From the NCBI GenBank assembly GCA_937890445.1, contig CALACD010000122.1, positions 1-34,720 of the forward strand: a stretch of DNA of 34,720 nucleotides. Reading direction: 5' to 3'. Positions 1-21,044 of this stretch are shown piece by piece (position 1 is the stretch's first letter; each line of letters starts with the position of its first letter). The notes below the pieces were generated by a model that saw nothing but the letters and a program-made list of their open reading frames with translations, was not told the DNA's origin and did not search any database. Both the position numbers and the translations under genes were made by a program. This DNA comes from an uncultured Acidimicrobiia bacterium (GTDB taxonomy: Bacteria > Actinomycetota > Acidimicrobiia > Acidimicrobiales > SZUA-35).

Positions 1-353
1 ACGGTCGAGCGCCATGACACCATCGGCGGTGCCTGCTCGAGGGAGTCCAACACGCTGCGTTACGGCCATCACACCCGCGCCCAACATGCCTGCGTCGAGA
101 ACTTCGTGCACGACAACGCCAAGCGTGGCATGGGCAAACGGGACATCGTGCCCAACATCAACTTCTTCATGAACGTGCCGGTCGAAGCAGACGGAACCCT
201 CGGCATCGTCGATGGTCTGTCGGCACCGGGTCTCACGGTCGACCTGCTGGCCGCGATGGACACGCTGGTGGCGGTGTCGAACTGTCCCCAGATCAACAAT
301 CCTTGCAACGGCTTCAACCCGACCCCGGTACGGATGATCGTGACCATGCCGGA

Positions 354-357
<4 letters not shown>
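1..357 (+). CDS. DUF1989 urea carboxylase-associated protein (UAAP2 / carboxyguanidine deiminase subunit-like), C-terminal 118 aa, truncated by window edge
   Basis: Frame 1 is open from base 1 to TGA 355-357: ...GGACSRESNTLRYGHHTRAQHACVENFVHDNAKRGMGKRDIVPNINFFMNVPVEADGTLGIVDGLSAPG...SNCPQINNPCNGFNPTPVR. The MNVPV..DG..GI.DG.SAPG and NCPQ.NNPC..FNPTP motifs are typical of the family. ATGA overlap with the downstream carboxylase. Confidence 0.88.
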
Positions 358-4063
<3,706 letters not shown>

Positions 4064-4067
<4 letters not shown>

Positions 4068-5746
4068 CCAACGAGACGGCGCGGCAAACGATCGAGGACA
4101 CGTTCGATCGCATCGACGTCGCGCGGCGCGACGTCGACGATGCCATCTTCATCGCGGTTGCTGATCGGGACCGAACGCTGGCCTCGGTCGACGGCGAGGG
4201 ACCACTGGCCGGACTCACCTTTGCCGTCAAGGACAACATCGACGTGGCCGGCATGGCCACGACCGCCGGCTGCCCGAGCTTCGGGTTCCAACCAGCAGTG
4301 TCGGCCACGGTGGTCGCTCGGCTGACCGGGGCCGGCGCCACCTGCGTGGCCAAGACCAATCTCGATCAGTTCGCCACCGGACTCGTCGGCACCCGCAGCC
4401 CCTACGGCATCCCGATCAATCCGGTCGATGCCCGATTGGTGCCGGGTGGGTCGTCGTCGGGCTCAGCCGTCGCCGTCGCCCGCGGTCTGGTCGACTTCGC
4501 CTTGGGCACCGACACCGCAGGCTCGGGTCGTGTCCCTGCGCTGCACAACCGCATCGTCGGGCTCAAACCGACCCGGGGACTCCTGTCGACGGCTGGCGTC
4601 GTGCCTGCGGTTCGTAGCATCGACTGTGTCTCGATCTTCGCCCGCGACATCTCGACGGCGTGGTCGGCGCTGGAACAGGCCCGAGGATTCGATGCCTCCG
4701 ACCCGTTCAGCCGCCGGGCACCGACTCCTCCCCCACCTTCCCCCCTGCTTCGGGTGGCTGTCCCTTCGGTCGTCGATCTCGACACCGATCTCGACCGCGC
4801 CGCCTGGGAGGAGGCGCTCGCCTCACTGCGTAACCTCGCCATCGAGGTGTGCGAGCTCGACATCTCGTTCCTGTGCGATGCCGGCGATCTGTTGTACGGC
4901 GGACCATGGGTGGCCGAGCGCCTGGCTGCGGTCGGAGACTTCCTACGAACCGAACCGGTCGATGCCGATCCGACCGTTGCCCGCATCATTCTGGGGGGTG
5001 ACGAATTCGCTGCCATCGACGCCTACCGAGCGCAGTACCAGTTGGCCCACTACAAGCAGCGGGCCGACGCACTCTGGCACGACATCGATGTACTGCTCGT
5101 TCCAACCGCCCCGGGGCTCGCCACCCTCGACGAGGTGGCCGCCGACCCCGTCGGACGCAACACCAGGCTCGGCCGCTACACCAACTGGGTCAACCTCCTC
5201 GACCAGTGTGCAATCGCCGTCCCCGGACCCGACCGGACCGACGGGTTGCCGTTCGGGGTCACGGTCATCGGTCCTGCGGGCGCGGATGCCACCATTGCCT
5301 CCTTGGCCGCCGACCTCGTGGGCGAACACCTGTCGGCGGCCGTCACCGAAGCGGCAACCGGCTGGCTCGACATTGCCGTGGTCGGCGCTCATCTGACCGG
5401 CCAGCCCTTGAACTGGCAGCTGACGGATCCCGGCGCCCGTCTCGTCACCTCCACCGTGACGGCCGCGTCGTATCGGCTCTATGCGCTGGCCAACTCCCAG
5501 CCGCCGAAGCCGGGCCTGGTCCACGTCGATGACGGCGGCGCCGCCATCGAGATCGAGATCTGGCGTATGCCGAGAGATGCCGTCGGCGGTCTGCTGGCCC
5601 GAATCCCCGCACCGCTGGGGTTGGGGACGCTGCAGCTGGCCGATGGGCGAACCGTACACGGCTTCATCGCCGAACCCCGGGCCATCGAAGGCGCCGACGA
5701 CATCACCCACTTCGGCGGATGGCGGGCCTACCTCGCGTCGCGCTGA
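4064..5746 (+). CDS. atzF: Allophanate hydrolase (amidase-signature enzyme with C-terminal domain)
   Basis: Amidase signature GGSSSGSAVAVARGLVDFALGTDTAGSGRVPA; C-terminal allophanate hydrolase domain (...GGWRAYLASR); ATGA overlap with the carboxylase. Confidence 0.92.
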
Positions 5747-5821
5747 GACCACGGCACCTGATTCTCCGTCCTGAAACGACCAGGCAACAGGCAGGAAACC
5801 TGGAGACGCGATCGTGAGGGG

Positions 5822-6436
5822 ATGCAACTCGATCTCACCGCAACCAGGCCGGCTCTCATCGTCGTCGACATCCAAGCCGGGGTCTCCGAAGGCGTCGAAG
5901 CCTCGCTGCCCCACGTCGGAGAGGCCGAAGCGGTTCCGAAAGCCGTCGACGTGCTCACCGCGGCACGACAGCTCGGCATACCGGTCATCCACTTCAGGGA
6001 GGTCCACCGCAAGGAGATGGTCGACTTCGGTCGAGAACTCGACGGCGACGAGCCCGTGCACTGTCTCGAGACCTGGCCCGAGGCGCAATACCACCCCGAC
6101 ACCTTCCCCATCGACGGCGAGTTCCCGATGCACAAGCGCCGCTACAGCTGTTTCATCGGAACCGACCTCGAAATCCTCCTGCGGGGTCTCAAGGTCGACA
6201 CGCTCATCTTGATCGGCGCCATGACCAACGTGTGCGTGCACTACACCTTCGCCGACGGGCATCAGAAGGACTACCACATGCACGTCGTCGAGGACGCGGT
6301 GTACGGATCGGATTGGCCGGCCCACCACGCCTCGCTGATCGCCATGGAGTATCTGCAGCACGGGGCCCGGATCACGGCCGAACAGTTCGTCGACGCCGTG
6401 GCCGACCAGTTGGCCAGTCGATCCGTCGGCGTCTGA
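5822..6436 (+). CDS. Isochorismatase-fold cysteine hydrolase (amidohydrolase; candidate biuret-type hydrolase)
   Basis: Catalytic triad context: ALIVVDIQ (Asp), HKRRYSCF (Lys), GAMTNVCVHYTFADGHQKDY (Cys). Confidence 0.88.
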   Translation: MQLDLTATRPALIVVDIQAGVSEGVEASLPHVGEAEAVPKAVDVLTAARQLGIPVIHFREVHRKEMVDFGRELDGDEPVHCLETWPEAQYHPDTFPIDGEFPMHKRRYSCFIGTDLEILLRGLKVDTLILIGAMTNVCVHYTFADGHQKDYHMHVVEDAVYGSDWPAHHASLIAMEYLQHGARITAEQFVDAVADQLASRSVGV

Positions 6437-6473
6437 GAACCGTCAGAGGAACGTCGCAGGAAAGGAGTCACGC

Positions 6474-7301
6474 ATGGCCAGCACCGGCGTCCGTCGGGTG
6501 GTGCCTCTCACCTTCGGTTGGGAGCACATTCCCCTGAGCATCTCGATCGCCGGTGGCGATCCGAACCTCCGCTTGCGCGAACCCGTACCCGGGATCCTCC
6601 TGGAGGTCGACGGCGGCTGGTTCCTTCTCGACACCGGGTTCAACACACCGGTGCTCCTGGACCACCAGCTCCGACGACGACTGTGTCACATGGGCATCGA
6701 GGACGAGTTGGTCGGCGACGACGGCGACTCGATCGAACGAGCCTTCGAGTTCGTCGGCATCGACCCGGCCGACGTCGTCGAGGTCGGACTCAGCCACCTC
6801 CACTACGACCACGCCGGCGGTTTGCGCTGGTTCGTCGAGCAAGCCCCCGTTCATTGCCAGCGAAGGGAACTGGAACACGCGCTGGCCCTCGACGCGCCCG
6901 AGCCCCAGGCCATGCTGCGTATGGACTTCGACGACCATCGCATCGACTGGCGACTGGCCGACGGTGATGTCGAGCTGGCACCGGGCATCACGGCCATCGC
7001 CACCTATGGCCACACCGTCGGCCATCAGAGCTTCGTGATCGACCTGATCGACGGTTCCGGCTTCGTCTTCGCCTTCGATGCCGCCGACCTCCAACGCAAT
7101 CTCGACGACGAGATCCCACCCGGTTCGGTGGCCACCGGCGATCAGGAGGAGGCCATCGAATCGATCCGACGACTGAAGGCGATCGCCAAGGAGAAGAACT
7201 ATCGCCTGATTCCGGGCCACGATCCCGACGTGTGGCCGGCCTTCACCGCAGAGCTCGGCTGCGAAGGCCCCCACGAACATGGACGGTTCCTTCCCGTCTG
7301 A
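6474..7301 (+). CDS. MBL-fold hydrolase, N-acyl homoserine lactonase-like
   Basis: SHLHYDHAGG (HxHxDH), distal GHTVGHQS and PGHDPDVWP motifs. Confidence 0.85.
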   Translation: MASTGVRRVVPLTFGWEHIPLSISIAGGDPNLRLREPVPGILLEVDGGWFLLDTGFNTPVLLDHQLRRRLCHMGIEDELVGDDGDSIERAFEFVGIDPADVVEVGLSHLHYDHAGGLRWFVEQAPVHCQRRELEHALALDAPEPQAMLRMDFDDHRIDWRLADGDVELAPGITAIATYGHTVGHQSFVIDLIDGSGFVFAFDAADLQRNLDDEIPPGSVATGDQEEAIESIRRLKAIAKEKNYRLIPGHDPDVWPAFTAELGCEGPHEHGRFLPV

Positions 7302-7423: not shown

Positions 7424-10400
7424 TTGCGTCGACTGATGGTCATCAGCTTGTGTTTCGCCCTTCTCGCAGCTGCCTGCACCGATAGCGGGAGCGACGACGA
7501 CGAGACCGGATCTGTGGGTGTCGGCAGGGTGGCGGACGCCACTCGACCGTCGCGCCTGGCACTGCAGTTGAGTGAGGGGTCGGCTTCCCAGGTTGCCGAC
7601 CCGGCGACCAGTGTCGTGACCGGCACCGCGTTGACCGACAACGAGGTCACGGCCATCCTCGATCGACTCCCCGTATGGGACGTGCCCGACACCGATCAGG
7701 TCGAGTCCAACCGCCCGACCGACTCGCTGCGCCCTCCCCTCATCGGCGACACCGTCGAAGGAACCTTCCCCCCGACCGGCGACGCCGACCCCACGGCAGA
7801 CGAAGCGGCCGACGGCCCACTCGAAGTCCTACGAGTCCAGCCCGAGGGTGCAGTCCCTCTCGCTGCGTTCCTGAGCATCACCTTCAACCAGCCAATGGTG
7901 CCGCTGGCCACCCTCGACCAGCTCGGAGCCGAAGACGTTCCCGTCACGGTCACTCCCGCCGTCGAGGGTCGGTGGCGTTGGATCGGGACTCGGACGCTGC
8001 GGTTCGAGGTCGACCCCGGCCTCACCGATCGGCTCCCGGCAGCCACCGAGTACCAGGTCGAGATCCCGGCCGGGACGGTATCGGCCAACGGGGCCCGACT
8101 CGCCGAAGCCGTCCGTTTCCAGTTCGCCACACCTGCGCCCCGAGTGGAGTCGTTCGTCGGGGCCTCCGACAGCATGCCGCTGACCTCGGTGTTCGTCGCC
8201 GTGTTCGATCAGGTCGTGGACCCCGAGAGCATCCTGTCGACCACCACCTTGGAGGTCGGCGCCGACGAGCGCCCCGTTCGGGTCGCCACCACGGACGAGA
8301 TCGAAGCCGACGAGGAAGCATCGAGTGCCATCGAGGATGCGTTGGAGGGGCGGGCCGTCGCCTTCGTCGCCACCGACCCGCTGCCGGTCGATCAACCGGT
8401 CGTGATCACGTTCGAGGCCGGTACCGCATCGACCGAAGGCCCCCGTGTCACCGACAGCCCCCAGACGTTCCGGGGCCGCACATTCGGCAACCTGCGAGTG
8501 AGCCGGACCGACTGCGGCTACGGCGACGGATGCCGACCGCTGACGCCGTTACGGATCGAGTTCAGCAACCCGCTGGACCTGAACGTGTTCACCCCGTCCA
8601 TGGTCGGCGCCGAACCGGCGATCCCCGGGATGCGGGTCAACGTCTACGGCAACACGATCGAGGTGGCGGGGGCAACCGCGGGCCGCACCACCTATGAGAT
8701 CACCCTGTCGGCCGCCATCACCGATACCTTCGGCCAGACGCTGGGCGACGACGTCACCGAGCGGTTCGAGGTCGGTCCGGCCCTACCCTGGCTCCGGGGC
8801 TTCGACCGCCAATTCGTGACCGTCGACCCGACGGCGCCATCTCCGACGGTGAGCATCTCGACCATCAACCACGAGAGCGTTCGAGTGAGGGCATGGTCGG
8901 TGTCGCCCGACCAATACGGGGACTATCTGCGTTACCTCGAGTCGACCTATGCAGACACCCGACCCCCCGAGCCGAGCTGGCCCGTGGTCCTCGACCAGGA
9001 CGTCGCCATCGACGCCCCCGACGACACCTTTGCCGAAACGGCGATCGATCTGACCGATGCCTTCGACCAGTCGGACGGACCGATCGTCGTGCGCATCGAA
9101 CCGACCCGAACGTTCTCGCCCGACAGCAACGAGTACTGGCAGAACCAACCCAGCTACGCCTTCGTGCAGCAGACCACCGTGGCCATCGATGCCATCGTCG
9201 ACAACGACGAGCTGCTGATCTGGACCACCGATCTGCGCACCGGTGAGCCCTTGGGCGACGTCGACGTCGAGGTGCTCGGTCGGAACGAATCCGTGACGAC
9301 CGACCAGGACGGACTGGCCCGGTTGTCGCTGAACGCCACGGGCGTGACCGGCTTGGTCGCCACGGTCGACGACCGGATCGGCATGCTGCCCTCCAGCTGG
9401 TACGACGGCTGGCAAGCCCAGCAGAACGGCGAGGAGACCCGCTGGTACGTCTTCGACGATCGGGGCATCTACAAGCCGGGTGAGACGGCAAGGGTGACGG
9501 GCTGGATCCGAACCATCGACGCCGGCAAGGGTGGCCCACCCGAACTCGTCGCCGACAGCGTCACGGTCGACTACCAGGTCTATGACCCGCAGTACAACGA
9601 GATCGCATCGGGTCAGACCGAGGTCAACGCGCTGGGCGGATTCAACCTGGCCGTCGACATCCCCGCCGCGGCCAATCTGGGTCAGGCGACGATCGAGTTC
9701 CAACTCTCGGGACCGGGCGCGCCGGCGTCGGGTTACGGCAACCACTGGTTCCAGATCCAGGAGTTCCGGACTCCCGAGTTCGAGGTGCTGGCCCGGGCCG
9801 AGAGCGCTGGCCCGTACCTGGTGGCCGAACCGGCCACCATTGCCGTGGACGCCAACTACTACGCCGGGGGCCCGCTTCCCGACGCCGAGGTCCAATGGCT
9901 GGTCAGCACCGCTCCCACCAGCTACTCCCCGCCCGGATGGGACCCGTTCGTGTTCGGCCAGTGGCAACCGTGGTGGATCGCCGGGCCCTCCTTCGAGGGC
10001 GGCTACGGGATCGACGGCTACCGCGGAGATTTCGGGGCCGAAGGCGACATCTGCTTCGACTGCGGTCCCGGCTTCGGTTCGATCGAGTACGAACAGTTCG
10101 CGGGCCGCACCGACGGCGGCGGACATCACTATCTGCAACTGGACTTCACCGGTCCCGAGATCGACCTGCCTTCGTCGATCACGGCCGAGTCGACCGTGTT
10201 CGACGTGAACCGTCAGGCCTTCGCCGGACGAACCAGCCTGTTGGTGCACGCGGCCCGCCAGTACGTCGGCCTGCGAACCGATCGACCGTTCGTGGAGAAG
10301 GGCACGCCGATTCGGGTCGACGTCGTCGTCACCGACATCGATGGTGCAGCCGTCGCCGGCCGCGATGTCGAGGTCACTGCGGGTCGGGTCGAGTCGATCT

Positions 10401-14281: not shown

Positions 14282-15076
14282 TCAGGTGTCGGAGATGCCT
14301 GCTCCCAGCAGTCGCTCGAGGCTGCCGAACCGGGCCAGCATCGTGAGCACACCCAGGCTGATCCCGGTGAAGACGATGGACACCGCAGCAATGGTCGGTG
14401 TGAAGCCGTAGCGAAGCGAATTGAAGATCTTGATGGGCAGGGTCTCCACGGTGAACCCTGCGACCATGAAGGCGATGATGTACTCGTTCAAGCTCAGGAC
14501 GAAGGCCGCCACGTAACCCGTCACGATGCTCGGCACCAGCAAGGGAAAGGTGACCGTGAAGAAGCGACGACGCCCATCGGCTCCCAACGTGGTCGCTGCC
14601 TCCTGGATCGACGGATCGATGCCGGCCAGACCGAGGCTGATGGTGATGAGCGGCACGGTCGAGAAGAAGACACCGTGGGCGATGATCACGTTCTCGATCT
14701 GACCGGGGCGCCCGATCTCGTTCCACAACACGAGGGCCCCGACGGCGCTGATCACGGGCGGAAGCATGAAGGGAAGCACCCCAAGGGCCATGAAGACACC
14801 GGAGAAGCGAGGCCGCCATTGATGGAGGGCATAGGCCATGGGCAGGGCGATCAGCACCGCGAGCCCCGCTCCGGGAACCGCGATCTTCAACGAGTTGCTC
14901 ACCGAGGCCCGCCATTGTGGGTCCGTGAGCAGAGCGCCATACCACTTGCCGGAGAACTCCGTGACGGGAAAGTCCAGGAACTGGTTGGCGTTCAGTGATG
15001 CGACGCCCACCACCAGCAGTGGCCCGACCAGGAAGATCACCACGGCCGAGATGACGAAGAATCGGAAGAGTCGCAT
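14282..15076 (-). CDS. ABC transporter permease (PotC-like)
   Basis: MRLFRFFVISAVVIFLVGPLLVVGVASL...; EAATTLGADGRRRFFTVTFPLL EAA-loop. The track ORF to 16258 is an in-frame extension; ATG 15076 overlaps the upstream TGA. Confidence 0.9.
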   Translation of the reverse strand: MRLFRFFVISAVVIFLVGPLLVVGVASLNANQFLDFPVTEFSGKWYGALLTDPQWRASVSNSLKIAVPGAGLAVLIALPMAYALHQWRPRFSGVFMALGVLPFMLPPVISAVGALVLWNEIGRPGQIENVIIAHGVFFSTVPLITISLGLAGIDPSIQEAATTLGADGRRRFFTVTFPLLVPSIVTGYVAAFVLSLNEYIIAFMVAGFTVETLPIKIFNSLRYGFTPTIAAVSIVFTGISLGVLTMLARFGSLERLLGAGISDT

Positions 15077-16008
15077 CAGACGGCCACCGCCTTCTGACGA
15101 GCGCGACCCTGGCGCGATCCCAACCAGGTCGTCACCCCGACGATGGCCAGGGAGACGGCGGTGAGGAACATGGCGATGGCGGCCGCGAACGGCACGTTCG
15201 AGTTGTAGGTGGCCTGGTCGGAGATGAACACCGACAACGTCCAGTGCTCGGGCCGACCGAGGACCTGGCCGATGATGTAGCTCCCGAGCGTGAAGACGAA
15301 CACCATGAGGAAGGCCGCGACCAGGTTGGTCCGACTGAGTGGCACCACCACGTTGAAGAACGTACGCAGCGGTGAAGCCCCCAGCGTCTCCGATGCTTCG
15401 GTGAGCTCGCGGTCGATACGGCTGAGCGCCGGATACAGGGTCAGCACGCAGTAGGGAAAGGCGATGTAGGCCAGTCCGATGCAGACCGCCCAGTACCCGG
15501 GCGTGTACGACTGCGGTTCGGACATCAGACCGAGCCAGACCATGATGTTCGAGATCCCCGACGCCCGGCCCAGGATCAGATCCCAGGCGAAGGCGACGAT
15601 GACCTCGGACAACGTCAACGCAGCCAGGATCATGATGAGCAGCGGAACCTGATACCGGGCCTTCATGCGTGTCAGGAACCAGGTGAACGGAAAGGCGAAC
15701 ATCACCGTCACCGCCGCCACGAACAGGCAGATGCGAAGCGAGAACAACGCCCGATCGATGTAGAAGTCGCTGCCGAGACGCGACCAGCTCTCGAGGACGA
15801 AGGCAGGCTCGTAGAACCCTCCCTGGATCCGCCGGTAGAACGAGGTCCGTAGCATCAGCGCGAACGGGCCGAGAAAGAACACGGCCAGCACGAGGGTGGG
15901 AACCATGAGCATGATCCGGCCCGACCAGCTCATGCCCGGCCCGTCCTCGTCGTGGATCACGGGCTCGGTCAGCTCGACCGTATCGGCTGGCGTCTCGACG
16001 ACGGTCAT
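15076..16008 (-). CDS. ABC transporter permease (PotB-like)
   Basis: Start chosen as ATG 16008 (MTVVETPADTVEL), overlapping the ATPase stop; EASETLGASPLRTFFNVVVPLS EAA-loop. Confidence 0.9.
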   Translation of the reverse strand: MTVVETPADTVELTEPVIHDEDGPGMSWSGRIMLMVPTLVLAVFFLGPFALMLRTSFYRRIQGGFYEPAFVLESWSRLGSDFYIDRALFSLRICLFVAAVTVMFAFPFTWFLTRMKARYQVPLLIMILAALTLSEVIVAFAWDLILGRASGISNIMVWLGLMSEPQSYTPGYWAVCIGLAYIAFPYCVLTLYPALSRIDRELTEASETLGASPLRTFFNVVVPLSRTNLVAAFLMVFVFTLGSYIIGQVLGRPEHWTLSVFISDQATYNSNVPFAAAIAMFLTAVSLAIVGVTTWLGSRQGRARQKAVAV

Positions 16009-17165
16009 ACCCGCTCCGGGTCGTCGACGACGACGCAACTGGCCATTGGGAAGTGCACACGGACCACGTCACCGCGGGCCAGCCTCGGCCCGGAAGCAAG
16101 ATCCCTGGAGCCGCCCTGCACGACGATTGGCTCGGCCAACCCCACATCGACGAAACACTCGAAGGTTGCACCCAGATCGCGTACGAACGACACCGTGCCC
16201 GGCAACCGATTGGGGGCTCGGTCGTCGCTGTCGGACCCGACGATCTCGAGTTCGGCATCGGCCGGGCGGGCCGAGATGGTCATGTCGGCGCCCACCGCGC
16301 GGAAGTCGCCGGTCGGGGGAACGTCGAACAACCTGCCCTCGATCTTCACCGAAGCGCGTCCTGCCGATCGCCCCCGGAGCAGGTTGGTGGCGCCGAGGAA
16401 CTTGGCCGTGAAGGCTGTCTTCGGCGATCGATAGACCTCGAGCGGCGGGCCAACCTGCTCGATACGACCCTGGTTCAACACGACGATCACATCGGACATC
16501 GTCATCGCTTCGCGTTGATCGTGGGTCACCATGATGGTGGTGATGCCCAGTTGCTGCTGGAGCAGACGGAGCTCGACCTGCAGCGATTCCCGCAAGTTGG
16601 CGTCGAGCGCCGACATGGGTTCGTCCAAGAGGAAGATGGCTGGGTTCCTGGCGAGCGCCCGAGCAATCGCCACCCGTTGCCGCTGCCCACCCGACAACTG
16701 GCTGACCTGGCGGTCGGCCAGCCCGTCGAGGTCGACGAGACGAAGCAGTTCGGCGACCCGGGTCGCGACCACGGCCTTCTCGGTACGTCGGATCTTCAGT
16801 CCGTACCCGATGTTGCGGCGGACATCGAGATGCGGGAACAGTGCCAGCGACTGGAAGACCATGCCGATATCGCGCTGATGAGCCGGGCGTTTGGTGATGT
16901 CTTCTCCCGCCAGACGGATGGTGCCGGCGTTGGGGTTGTCCAGTCCCGCGATCAGACGAAGCAGGGTCGTCTTGCCACAGCCCGACGGCCCGAGGAACGA
17001 CACCAACTGCCCCGAAGGCACCTGCAGCGACACATCGTCGACGGCTACGACGGAGCCGAAGCGGCGGGTGACACGCTCCAGGACCAGATTCTCGGTCACC
17101 GATGATTCCGTCGCACTCGCCTCCGATGCACCGGTGCGAAGATCGATCTCGGATTCGGTCAGCAT
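16005..17165 (-). CDS. ABC transporter ATP-binding protein (PotA-like)
   Basis: Walker A GPSGCGKTT, signature LSGGQRQRVAIARAL, Walker B IFLLDEPMSALD, C-terminal TOBE-like domain. Confidence 0.95.
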   Translation of the reverse strand: MLTESEIDLRTGASEASATESSVTENLVLERVTRRFGSVVAVDDVSLQVPSGQLVSFLGPSGCGKTTLLRLIAGLDNPNAGTIRLAGEDITKRPAHQRDIGMVFQSLALFPHLDVRRNIGYGLKIRRTEKAVVATRVAELLRLVDLDGLADRQVSQLSGGQRQRVAIARALARNPAIFLLDEPMSALDANLRESLQVELRLLQQQLGITTIMVTHDQREAMTMSDVIVVLNQGRIEQVGPPLEVYRSPKTAFTAKFLGATNLLRGRSAGRASVKIEGRLFDVPPTGDFRAVGADMTISARPADAELEIVGSDSDDRAPNRLPGTVSFVRDLGATFECFVDVGLAEPIVVQGGSRDLASGPRLARGDVVRVHFPMASCVVVDDPERV

Positions 17166-17166
17166 G

Positions 17167-18378
17167 TCAGCCGGCGAAGATCTGCTCGGACCACTGCTGG
17201 TTGATCCAGTCCTCGCGCTCCTGGTAGGCCGTGTAGTACGGCTTGATTGCAGCGTCGGGTCCCGGTCCGGACACCATCTCGTAGTCCTCAGCGGTCAGTT
17301 CGAGGTGCTCGACGCCCACCGTCGGGGATGTCCCGAGCGTGGTGGCGAGCCGTTCCTGGACCGTGGGCTGGGAGAACCAGTCGATGAAGACCAGCGACGC
17401 CTCCGGCTGCTCGGTGGTCTTGGTGATGGCCCAGCTCCCGCTGTCGAGCACCGCTCCCTCCTCGGGGAAGACCGAGCGGAGTGGCTCCCCGATGCTGGCC
17501 GCGTACTGGGTGATGTCGTGGTAGAACTGCCCGATCGCCACCTCGCCCGAGTTGTAGTCCTGCTGAGCGGTCGCCTCGTCCCGCCACCAGAGCTTCACGT
17601 TGTCCTTGAGTTCGGCGATCTTGGCCATGACCTCCAAGATGCCCTCCTCGGTCTCGAGCATCGTCGTGCCTTCGTCGAACCAGGTGTTGGCAGTGATGTC
17701 GAGCAGGAACGAGGTCTGCGCCTGGTTGTTCAGCGCCATGTCGTTCAACCATTGAGAATCCCAGAGCGTCTTCCACGACGTCGGGCTCTCGGGAACCCGG
17801 TCGGTGTTGGACACCAACGTGATGTACCACGATGCCGCTCCCACCCCGATCACTTCATCGGCATCGTTGGTACGCACGAATCCTTCGGCCTGGTACGTGG
17901 CGTTGGCAAGATCTGACGCGCTGTATCCCATCAGCAGGCCACCGGTCGAGGCCTTGAGGATGTCGACGTTCCCGAACATCGACACGTCGGCCGGGGCCGT
18001 CCCGGCCGCCACGGCCTGCTGAACCTGGATCAGCCATGCCCCGCCGCCGGGCTCGGAGATCGACTCGACCTCGATGCCGGTCTCGGCGGTGAAGTCCGGG
18101 TAGATGGCCTTGTAGTTCTCCTCGAAGAATCCACCGAAGGTGGCAACCTTGATCTTGGTGCCGGTCAGGTCGGCCGCGCTGGGGGCGGCCACCGGTTCGG
18201 CCCCGGCTTCGGCCTCGTCACTTCCACCGCCACAGGCAGCCAACAACGACGACGGGAGCGCCAGTGCCGCTCCGGTCAGGCCCAGCCGACGAAGGACGTC
18301 GCGGCGCGATTGGTCGGCGGGCGCGTTGAAACGTCCTGGAAGGGCGAGTCGAGGGTCGGTGCGGCGGAAGTGGGTCAT
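17167..18378 (-). CDS. Extracellular solute-binding protein (PotD/spermidine-putrescine type), probable Tat-exported lipoprotein
   Basis: SRRDVLRRLGLTGAALALPSSLLAAC (twin-Arg + lipobox), GTKIKVATFGGFFEENYKAIYPDFTAETGIEVE; 1-nt gap to the ATPase gene. Confidence 0.9.
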   Translation of the reverse strand: MTHFRRTDPRLALPGRFNAPADQSRRDVLRRLGLTGAALALPSSLLAACGGGSDEAEAGAEPVAAPSAADLTGTKIKVATFGGFFEENYKAIYPDFTAETGIEVESISEPGGGAWLIQVQQAVAAGTAPADVSMFGNVDILKASTGGLLMGYSASDLANATYQAEGFVRTNDADEVIGVGAASWYITLVSNTDRVPESPTSWKTLWDSQWLNDMALNNQAQTSFLLDITANTWFDEGTTMLETEEGILEVMAKIAELKDNVKLWWRDEATAQQDYNSGEVAIGQFYHDITQYAASIGEPLRSVFPEEGAVLDSGSWAITKTTEQPEASLVFIDWFSQPTVQERLATTLGTSPTVGVEHLELTAEDYEMVSGPGPDAAIKPYYTAYQEREDWINQQWSEQIFAG

Positions 18379-18483: not shown

Positions 18484-19098
18484 CTACTCGGTGGTGGCAT
18501 CCAACTCGCCGGCGAGCCGTTGGGACAGGTCCGGCGGGCCGAGGCGGATGACGGTCCTCCAGCCGCGCCGACCGTGTTGTTGGTAGATGGCCGCCCACCG
18601 GCCGGTCCGGTCGTCGATCACCATGCCGACGCGATGGGCACCGATGCAGATCACGAGGCCTGAGCCCCTGGCGAAACGATGCACCGGTCGCACGACGTCC
18701 TCCGGAGCGCTCACTCGCTCCCAGACTTCGACGAACTCGACCTTCGAGCCATCGAGGTCGAACGAGCCGTGCTCGTGGATCAGCCCGTCCTGCCAGATCA
18801 GTGTGCCGATGTCGTTGCCCACGTCCACCGAATCCGCAGCACCCGGTGCCGCCGAATCCAGGAGGTGTTCCCAGGTGAGAGACGGATCGTTCCAGGTGGT
18901 CCTTCCTCCGAAAGCTCCCGGCCCCGAGAGAGGAGCATCGACCCGCGGGTTCCGGATGTCGATGAAATCGTCGCCGGCTTGGAGCCAGAGCACGGTTGCC
19001 GGTTCGACCGGGCGTTCACCGCCGATCGAGACCGACCTTCGTTTCCACGCTCCACTGAAGATGGCGGGCGTTGCGGTCGCGTTCATGATCGACGTCAT
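18484..19098 (-). CDS. Uncharacterised beta-rich (possibly calycin/HRI1-like) protein
   Basis: Complete ORF with 4-nt overlap to the upstream oxygenase stop; FSGAWKRRSVSIGG...ATVLWLQAGDDFIDIRNPR...KVEFVEVWERVS... Fold assignment is a weak impression only. Confidence 0.75.
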   Translation of the reverse strand: MTSIMNATATPAIFSGAWKRRSVSIGGERPVEPATVLWLQAGDDFIDIRNPRVDAPLSGPGAFGGRTTWNDPSLTWEHLLDSAAPGAADSVDVGNDIGTLIWQDGLIHEHGSFDLDGSKVEFVEVWERVSAPEDVVRPVHRFARGSGLVICIGAHRVGMVIDDRTGRWAAIYQQHGRRGWRTVIRLGPPDLSQRLAGELDATTE

Positions 19099-20216
19099 GG
19101 CAGGAAGGTCAGGAGGTCACGGTGGAAATCGGTGATGGGCTTCTCGTGCACGCTGGCCAGCGGCCCCACCCCGAACTGTTTGGATCGCAGTACCCGCTGC
19201 ACCTGCTCGACGGCGAAGCCGTCCTCGTCGACCAGCACCTTCAGCAGATCGATCCGGCCGGCATCGGTGAGCTCTGACCCCGGCTGGGCCCGAATCCGAA
19301 TATCGAGCTCGCTCGTCGTCGGTCCGGTCGGGATCACCTGATAGGTCATGGTGAGCGTGTCCGACGACGAGGTCGGCACGTTGGGGAAGATCAGGTTGGC
19401 TCGCAGGACATCGAGTTCCTCTGTCGGGAGATGCTCGATGCGAGGCAGGCTCCGGTTCCGATTGTTCGACTCCCTCGTCTCCCCCTCCCGAAGTCGCTCA
19501 TCGGAGACCCAATGCAGACCCAACTTGTGATGGTTGAAGTTGGCGTGGTCGTACATGCCGAGCGTCTCGTCGTGGAGATACCAGAGATGGAGGACGTCGA
19601 TGTGATTCTCGATGTACAACTTCCAATTGCACTGGATGGGAACCTTCAGTCGGAACACTTCTTCGAGCTGGCTGACATCGAACGGCCCACGATGGGCTGG
19701 ATAGGCATCCAGCCAGAGGTCGAACGGCTCGGCATCACCCGAAGGGTGCACGAAGACCATGCCGTCATAGCTGGCGGTCGGCAGCGGGATCAGGCCCCAC
19801 TGGCTGGGATCGACGTCGGCGAACTGGCCCGACCGTTGGGGGATGCGCACCAGGGTTCCGCCCGGATCGAACTCCCAGCCGTGATAGAAGCACCGAATGT
19901 TCCCATCGGTGTGCCCGGCCTCACAGGCCAGTGCCATTCCTCGATGACGGCACATGTTGACGAAGCCCCGAATCTCCCCGTCACGGCCCCGCATCAGCAG
20001 GATCGGTTCGAAGCCGACATTGACCGGGAGATAGTCACCGGGGTTCGCAAGATCGGCCTCGTAGGCCACGAGATTCCAGGTCCGGGCAAACAGCTCTCGT
20101 TGTTCGCGCTCGTACCACTCCGGGCTGAAGTAGGCCTCGGGCGGCAGCAGATAGCGGGCTCGATCCTCGGTGGCAAGCATCCGAAGGTCGAGGTCGGTCG
20201 GTGAGTCGAGGGTCAC
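19095..20216 (-). CDS. Rieske non-heme iron oxygenase, alpha subunit (full length)
   Basis: Rieske motif CRHRGMALACEAGHTDGNIRCFYHGW (CxH-17-CxxH); iron site ENHIDVLHLWYLHDETLG (DxxHx4H); EDGFAVEQVQ near the C-terminus. GTG start 20216 overlaps upstream TGA. Confidence 0.94.
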   Translation of the reverse strand: MTLDSPTDLDLRMLATEDRARYLLPPEAYFSPEWYEREQRELFARTWNLVAYEADLANPGDYLPVNVGFEPILLMRGRDGEIRGFVNMCRHRGMALACEAGHTDGNIRCFYHGWEFDPGGTLVRIPQRSGQFADVDPSQWGLIPLPTASYDGMVFVHPSGDAEPFDLWLDAYPAHRGPFDVSQLEEVFRLKVPIQCNWKLYIENHIDVLHLWYLHDETLGMYDHANFNHHKLGLHWVSDERLREGETRESNNRNRSLPRIEHLPTEELDVLRANLIFPNVPTSSSDTLTMTYQVIPTGPTTSELDIRIRAQPGSELTDAGRIDLLKVLVDEDGFAVEQVQRVLRSKQFGVGPLASVHEKPITDFHRDLLTFLP

Positions 20217-21007
20217 GGGAGGGCTCCTTCGAGGTAGTCGATGACATTGCGCTGGAAGGCGACGATGGGTTGCTCGTGGGTGGCAGCGAGAGGGCCGACG
20301 CGGAAGTGCCGCGACCAGAGGACGTGTTGAATACGAGCGCAGGCCTCCATGTCCTCCTCGATGAACCCCAGTGACGCACGTACCAGAGGGTCTGGATCAG
20401 CTCCGGGCTCGGCCAGAACCCGCAGTTCGACGACGGTCCTGTCGGCCGCCACCGGCCGAGCCCGATAGGTCAGGAAGAAGTCGGCTGCGGCTGCCATCGG
20501 CGTGTCGGGAAACAGCAGATGGGCGCCGAGACCGACGACGTCCCGTTCCTCGAGATGTGAGATGAGCGAACCGGTCGGTCGGGGCTGGCCGGCTCGCAGC
20601 GGTTCGTAGCTGGCCCAGTTGCGGCCCAGTTGACGATGCTCGAATCGAGCGTGGTCGAAGCTGCCGAGCGATCGATCGTGGAGATACCAGAGGTGGAGAA
20701 CGTCGAGATGGTTCTCGATGAACAACTTCCAGTTGAACTCGCCCTCCAGATCCACCGAGGCCACCTCGACCAGACGTTCGGGCTGAACGCTGCCGAGCGC
20801 ACGGGGAAGCGCACCGAGCGCCGCTTCCAGCGGCTCCGACGGTCTGTTGGAGGAGAAGTCCAGACCGGCCCAATGATCGAGGGTCGTGCCTTCACTGCCG
20901 CGGTGCCAGGTGGTGTCCAGGAGCGCGCGGCGCTCGACGTCGAACCAGGCACCGTCGGTGTAGGCCTGCGGCTCGAGGAGATAGCGAGGACGTTCGAGTA
21001 ATGGCAA
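20213..21007 (-). CDS. Rieske-less paralog of the adjacent oxygenase alpha subunit (catalytic domain only)
   Basis: RYLLEPQAYTDGAWFDVERRALLDTTW aligns to RYLLPPEAYFSPEWYEREQRELFARTW of the neighbour; NWKLFIENHLDVLHLWYLHDRSLGSFDHARFEHRQLG aligns to NWKLYIENHIDVLHLWYLHDETLGMYDHANFNHHKLG; no CxH/CxxH motif. Track start GTG 21034; TTG 21007 is possible given a putative -10 at 21015-21020. Confidence 0.88.
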   Translation of the reverse strand: MPLLERPRYLLEPQAYTDGAWFDVERRALLDTTWHRGSEGTTLDHWAGLDFSSNRPSEPLEAALGALPRALGSVQPERLVEVASVDLEGEFNWKLFIENHLDVLHLWYLHDRSLGSFDHARFEHRQLGRNWASYEPLRAGQPRPTGSLISHLEERDVVGLGAHLLFPDTPMAAAADFFLTYRARPVAADRTVVELRVLAEPGADPDPLVRASLGFIEEDMEACARIQHVLWSRHFRVGPLAATHEQPIVAFQRNVIDYLEGALP

Positions 21008-21014
21008 GGACCGG

Positions 21015-21044
21015 ACTATGGCGAAGCCGACCACACGTGGTCAA
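21015..21044 (-). promoter_or_regulatory. Putative promoter (-35 TTGACC, 18-nt spacer, -10 CATAGT) with embedded 14-bp inverted repeat GACCAC-AC-GTGGTC (21029-21042)
   Basis: Minus-strand reading TTGACCACGTGTGGTCGGCTTCGCCATAGT; both palindrome arms are perfect. Confidence 0.5.

Follow-up and report, generated by a model that had tools for sequence, protein, structure and literature searches.

A Rieske oxygenase gene pair with one Rieske-less alpha subunit, and its possible role in guanidine metabolism

Can a Rieske oxygenase (RO) subunit that lacks its Rieske domain still work, and from where would it receive electrons? This question is raised by two adjacent minus-strand genes, here named α1 and α2 (Table 1). 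They are located in a window of 34,720 bases, which is the whole stretch of DNA that was analyzed and corresponds to a complete contig of a draft assembly (619 contigs, 94% complete) from an uncultured actinobacterium.

The coupled α1-α2 genes and the missing Rieske domain

Both open reading frames proved to be real and positioned as claimed in the first-pass annotation, and their suspected translational coupling corresponds to a 4-nt overlap. A second coupling, absent from that annotation, was detected between α2 and the downstream HRI1-like gene, which also overlap by 4 nt. No β subunit gene was found in the operon, nor was a reductase or GST-like gene; the neighbors are the HRI1-like gene and ABC transporter genes.

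Using Pfam models, we found a Ring_hydroxyl_A match (E 8.3e-21) and no Rieske match in α1, and its row in an alignment of 17 homologues was devoid of the CxH...CxxH motif. For α2, both Rieske (E 6e-18) and Ring_hydroxyl_A (E 2e-24) matches were obtained and the Fe ligands are kept, showing that it is a full RO alpha subunit. The segment missing from α1, originally estimated at about 100 residues, amounts to 91-93 residues net in comparison to intact homologues and to 100 aa in comparison to α2. According to the 17-homologue alignment, the gap begins just past the N-terminal LFxxTW and runs up to the last Rieske-side strand, and the eight junction residues match neither flank clearly. As proposed, the remaining α1 sequence can be aligned with α2 in two parts, the catalytic domain (38% identity over 211 residues, E 2e-48) and the N terminus (42% over 38 residues). 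The D-x2-H-x4-H motif and the C-terminal E-D, which α1 had been said to keep, are indeed present, all in columns that are invariant across the 17 homologues. The AlphaFold2 model of α1 is confident (pLDDT 89.4, pTM 0.87), and its best fold matches in the PDB are the stachydrine demethylase Stc2 and the carnitine monooxygenase CntA.

The third gene encodes a protein of the PF16815 family, the name of which comes from a yeast protein. By tblastn, an HRI1-like gene was detected next to an RO gene in seven other loci (L022, L035, L040, L062, L063, L067, and L068), and weak matches were found beside RO genes in two further loci (L036 and L069). The HRI1-like gene recurs immediately downstream of this RO family, and its product is a possible accessory subunit. 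A search of solved structures for its function returned only one weak, uninformative match.

Table 1. Positions of the features discussed in the text (window coordinates unless a locus is given)
Feature	Position	Strand	Remark
Partial DUF1989 gene	1-357	+	Window context
Urea/guanidine carboxylase	303-4067	+	Window context
Allophanate hydrolase	4064-5746	+	Window context
Isochorismatase-type hydrolase	5822-6436	+	Window context
MBL-fold lactonase-like protein	6474-7301	+	Window context
Two ABC permeases	15076-16038 and about 14282-15163	-	
ABC ATPase	16005-17165	-	ABC transporter genes span 14282-17165
PotD-like ABC substrate-binding protein	17167-18378	-	Downstream of HRI1-like gene
HRI1-like protein (PF16815)	18484-19098	-	204 aa; Pfam match E 1.4e-10
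α2	19095-20216	-	Complete RO alpha subunit, 373 aa, GTG start
α2 Rieske domain (CRH...CFYH)	19830-20081	-	68.2 bits; sole local Rieske centre
α1 stop/α2 start overlap	20213-20216	-	4 nt (GTGA)
α1	20213-21034	-	RO catalytic subunit without Rieske domain, 273 aa; opens the coupled gene set
α1 Glu227-Asp228	20351-20356	-	Carboxylate Fe-ligand region; invariant columns
α1 NWKLFIENHLDVLHLWYLH	20678-20734	-	Bridging Asp111 and Fe-ligand His114 and His119; invariant columns
α1 deletion junction	20882-20905	-	Residues 44-51, HRGSEGTT; between N-terminal arm (TTW) and strand LDHWAGLDF
RO of G253	L040:7667-8185	+	Single-copy locus
RO of G859	L068:8063-8913	+	Single-copy locus
Guanidine-I riboswitches	L067:10308-10418, L036:8180-8282, L066:8335-8437	-	

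Recurrence of the pair and origin of the Rieske loss

We searched for homologues in overlapping samples of relatives and of the family, class, order, and phylum, comprising more than 900 related genomes. In these overlapping samples, nine genomes had a single intact copy of the RO family, and two had a pair. The pair together with the HRI1-like gene therefore exists elsewhere, namely in genomes G883 and G954 (loci L062 and L063, respectively). It was absent from same-genus and same-family genomes, from one phylum-wide sample, and from plasmids, and the α1 gene was carried by no close relative. The pair is known from three genomes, all of them draft assemblies, with each kind of loss in one genome.

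In G883, both subunits are intact, α1 and α2 overlap by 4 nt, and the HRI1-like gene follows. In G954, a distant relative, the first subunit is intact, and the second is a 306-aa protein that is missing 52-54 residues, the two cluster-binding motifs among them. Rieske-fold β-strands and the entire Fe site of this protein remain (model pLDDT 88.8). The Rieske losses in the window and in G954 differ in extent and affect opposite partners; both are in frame and restricted to the Rieske part, and neither shortened protein has lost D, H, H, or E-D. In another genome (G052, locus L012), a short open frame was considered as a further Rieske-less RO but rejected, as it is truncated at the contig end.

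At column 225 of the alignment, the Cys before NWK (CNWK) is near-invariant in the family. It is replaced by Phe in the window α1 and in the L062 α1, and by Ser in the second subunit of L063; all three exceptions belong to pairs.

The closest α1 homologue by identity (52-54%) is the RO of KatS3mg009, a single, intact gene followed by an HRI1-like gene. Since the close homologues of α1 all keep an intact Rieske domain, the loss in α1 is derived and lineage specific. Intact homologues in close relatives had been named as a refutation of the first interpretation; they do exist, and an ancient, fixed Rieske-less architecture was consequently given up. In the phylogenetic tree, the window α2, the G883 α2, and the RO of genome G186 form one clade with support of 100/100. 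The second subunit of G954 joins this clade weakly (62/94) and may therefore be a separate duplicate. The loss in the second gene of the G954 pair holds regardless; its orthology to α2 does not. A recent tandem duplication as the origin of the window genes was rejected (sister grouping, p-AU 1.4e-5). Since the two window genes are not sister sequences, their paralogy predates the deletion.

Is α1 a functional protein? We regard it as unlikely, though worth serious attention, that α1 is a decaying duplicate, in which the deletion occurred after α2 had covered the function, with the frame surviving by chance, by recency, or through the translational coupling of α2. Destructive lesions do exist in single-copy relatives. 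The RO of G253 carries an in-frame deletion of 684 nt (228 codons) relative to that of G166, a genome of the same genus with DNA 87% identical; it removes almost the entire catalytic domain and half the Rieske motif, and the gene still overlaps the HRI1-like gene. The RO of G859, which adjoins an HRI1-like fragment and urease genes, is without the first CxH motif, and its reading frame is disrupted by a shift near 8600 and by an in-frame TGA. It is these decayed copies that most strongly call for caution. In addition, the tree branch of α1 is long (0.79 versus a median of 0.49), and 47/54 near-invariant catalytic positions are retained (0.87; intact rows, 0.91-0.98; second subunit of G954, 0.91), as would be expected from mild decay. 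However, the G253 and G859 lesions affect single-copy loci, whereas the paired genomes keep every metal ligand and lose the Rieske part only; no argument against plain decay is stronger than this contrast, although it is based on small numbers. Moreover, opposite partners were hit in two lineages, α1 has neither stops nor frameshifts, and its GC content by codon position (0.74/0.46/0.76) shows the pattern of a coding frame. No significant rate excess of α1 over intact homologues was detected in nine Tajima relative-rate tests (p 0.10-0.87). The constraint pattern is what a functional protein or a deletion of fairly recent date would give, and it does not fit long neutral decay.

It is considerably less probable that the draft assembly dropped the Rieske segment of an intact α1. 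Although the assembly comprises many contigs (see above) and the close homologues of α1 are intact, the deletion is in frame, its junction residues match neither side and fold confidently, and the unrelated L063 assembly contains a mirror-image loss in a similar pair. The opposite in-frame losses in two pairs thus disfavor an assembly error and favor a functional α/α' complex.

Guanidine context and the proposed complex

Relatives of the RO are located in guanidine loci, with a guanidinase, a carboxylase/allophanate hydrolase, or a guanidine riboswitch near the RO gene. In L037, the ureohydrolase best matches the guanidinase of Nitrospira inopinata (9FEK, E 4e-198) and keeps the Thr and Trp that mark guanidinases; relatives with 78-83% identity are encoded in L065, L066, and L067. 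One of the guanidine-I riboswitches (in L067) directly precedes the guanidinase, RO, and HRI1-like genes. No guanidine riboswitch above threshold was found in the window. Urease genes are present in the RO loci L037, L065, L067, and L068, and a carboxylase and an allophanate hydrolase are encoded in the window and in L034. The window carboxylase cluster lies ~12 kb away from the RO pair, and the kinds of genes found at positions 1-7301 of the window also flank the RO in relatives. The carboxylase is named urea carboxylase by an NCBIfam model; it may act on guanidine, since a DUF1989 gene adjoins it. Creatininase-family, type III glutamine synthetase, and SDR genes are recurrent in RO loci, too. 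A creatininase-family amidohydrolase gene adjoins a type III glutamine synthetase-like gene near the RO in L034, L035, L037, L038, L062, and L063.

The guanidine loci, together with nearest folds that belong to N-dealkylating enzymes, suggest that the likeliest RO reaction would be N-dealkylation of a substituted guanidine. In the literature searched, no Rieske enzyme is described that feeds a guanidinase from substituted guanidines.

We consider the following model, taken as a whole, to be moderately probable. The old paralogues α1 and α2, encoded in one operon with the HRI1-like protein, would come together in a mixed oligomer; in the lineage of the window, α1 has lost its Rieske domain. Electrons would pass from the Rieske centre of α2 across the subunit interface to the conserved Asp of α1 and on to its mononuclear iron. 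The complex would oxidatively N-dealkylate a substituted, methylguanidine-like guanidine, and the released guanidine would enter the urea/guanidine branch, the genes of which also lie in the window. Of the α/α' complex with a shared Rieske centre that was proposed at first, the recurrence of the pair and the opposite loss in G954, with its Fe site retained, spoke in favor, while the complex, electron path, reaction, and substrate are parts of the model that we infer. Probably, each of the two pairs (window and G954) forms a mixed complex sharing the electron donor of one partner.

In ROs, the cluster is ~12 Å from the iron of the neighboring subunit and ~45 Å from that of its own subunit (PMC12445004), and therefore, α2 could serve α1. 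A constraint absent from the first-pass annotation concerns a head-to-tail C3 ring: with a Rieske-less subunit in it, one acceptor site would have no donor. Since each site in such a ring needs a Rieske-bearing neighbor, the active sites would be limited by α2, and each α2 should support no more than one electron-competent site. An odd ring such as a trimer cannot strictly alternate two subunits, and thus, mixed trimers or another stoichiometry would be required.

It is very unlikely that α1 is served by a Rieske centre on another protein, a reductase or a separate ferredoxin, instead of α2. This arrangement has a precedent in NdmC with NdmD (PMC4408171), and a ferredoxin-like Rieske domain is encoded elsewhere in the window genome (contig C51). 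Yet no FAD_binding_6 reductase match was obtained in the 94% complete assembly, no Rieske-reductase fusion was found among the 14 Rieske matches in the genome, and it is α2, not a reductase or GST-like gene, that is coupled to α1. The genome encodes about a dozen ROs, and a protein with a Reductase_C domain on C112 is a possible electron partner; the reductase may be of this other type or may be missing from the assembly. A structural or regulatory role for α1, without turnover and in place of the absent β subunit, is hardly credible: although a Rieske-less α1 could not donate electrons to its neighbors, neither shortened protein has lost an iron ligand or the bridging Asp.

A broader, tentative reading of the shared-donor model is that obligate α/α' ROs of guanidine metabolism exist in Acidimicrobiia-type actinobacteria and that either paralogue might shed its Rieske centre, since the partner provides one; the donor and acceptor roles would then have been separated two or more times, in opposite directions. 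The shared-donor interpretation itself is plausible and is helped by the reversed pair; it is unproven and is based on three draft genomes.

If the model is true, nature has separated the roles of electron donor and acceptor in this pair. In a homotrimeric RO, both roles reside on one gene product and are therefore hard to separate by mutation. With a one-Rieske pair, its mirror image, and a third pair that is intact and ancestor-like, the direction of intersubunit electron transfer, the stoichiometry, and the use of sites would be testable with wild-type proteins. Guanidine metabolism would also gain an oxygenase, one that may turn substituted guanidines into substrate for guanidinase.

Comparison with known oxygenase systems

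Separation of the two metal centers is known from the chlorophyllide a oxygenase of Micromonas pusilla, with the Rieske centre on one chain and the iron site on the other. This enzyme of two polypeptides (PMC9615114) is a plastid enzyme of another subfamily, and the window α2, by contrast, keeps both centers. NdmC of the caffeine N7-demethylase NdmCDE of Pseudomonas putida CBB5 is, like α1, a Rieske-less nonheme iron oxygenase of the RO family to which a partner donates electrons. As a precedent for a Rieske-less oxygenase, it stands; as a precedent for the electron source, it does not, since NdmC uses an extra Rieske cluster on its reductase NdmD (PMC4408171), and no such protein was found here. 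Furthermore, the GST-like NdmE is needed in that system, whereas in the window a full-length paralogous alpha subunit is the likely donor.

Two alpha paralogues in one heterohexamer are found in NdmA/NdmB, an α3α'3 oxygenase (PMC12445004). Both NdmA and NdmB keep the Rieske domain, in contrast to the window α1, and the window pair is known from its coupled genes. Stc2 and CntA (α3), the nearest solved folds to α1, share C-N bond-cleaving chemistry; they consist of a single complete alpha subunit and show 14-19% identity. The closest arrangement is that of the G883 pair, with the gene order α1-α2-HRI1 and the same 4-nt α1/α2 overlap, but with both Rieske domains intact.
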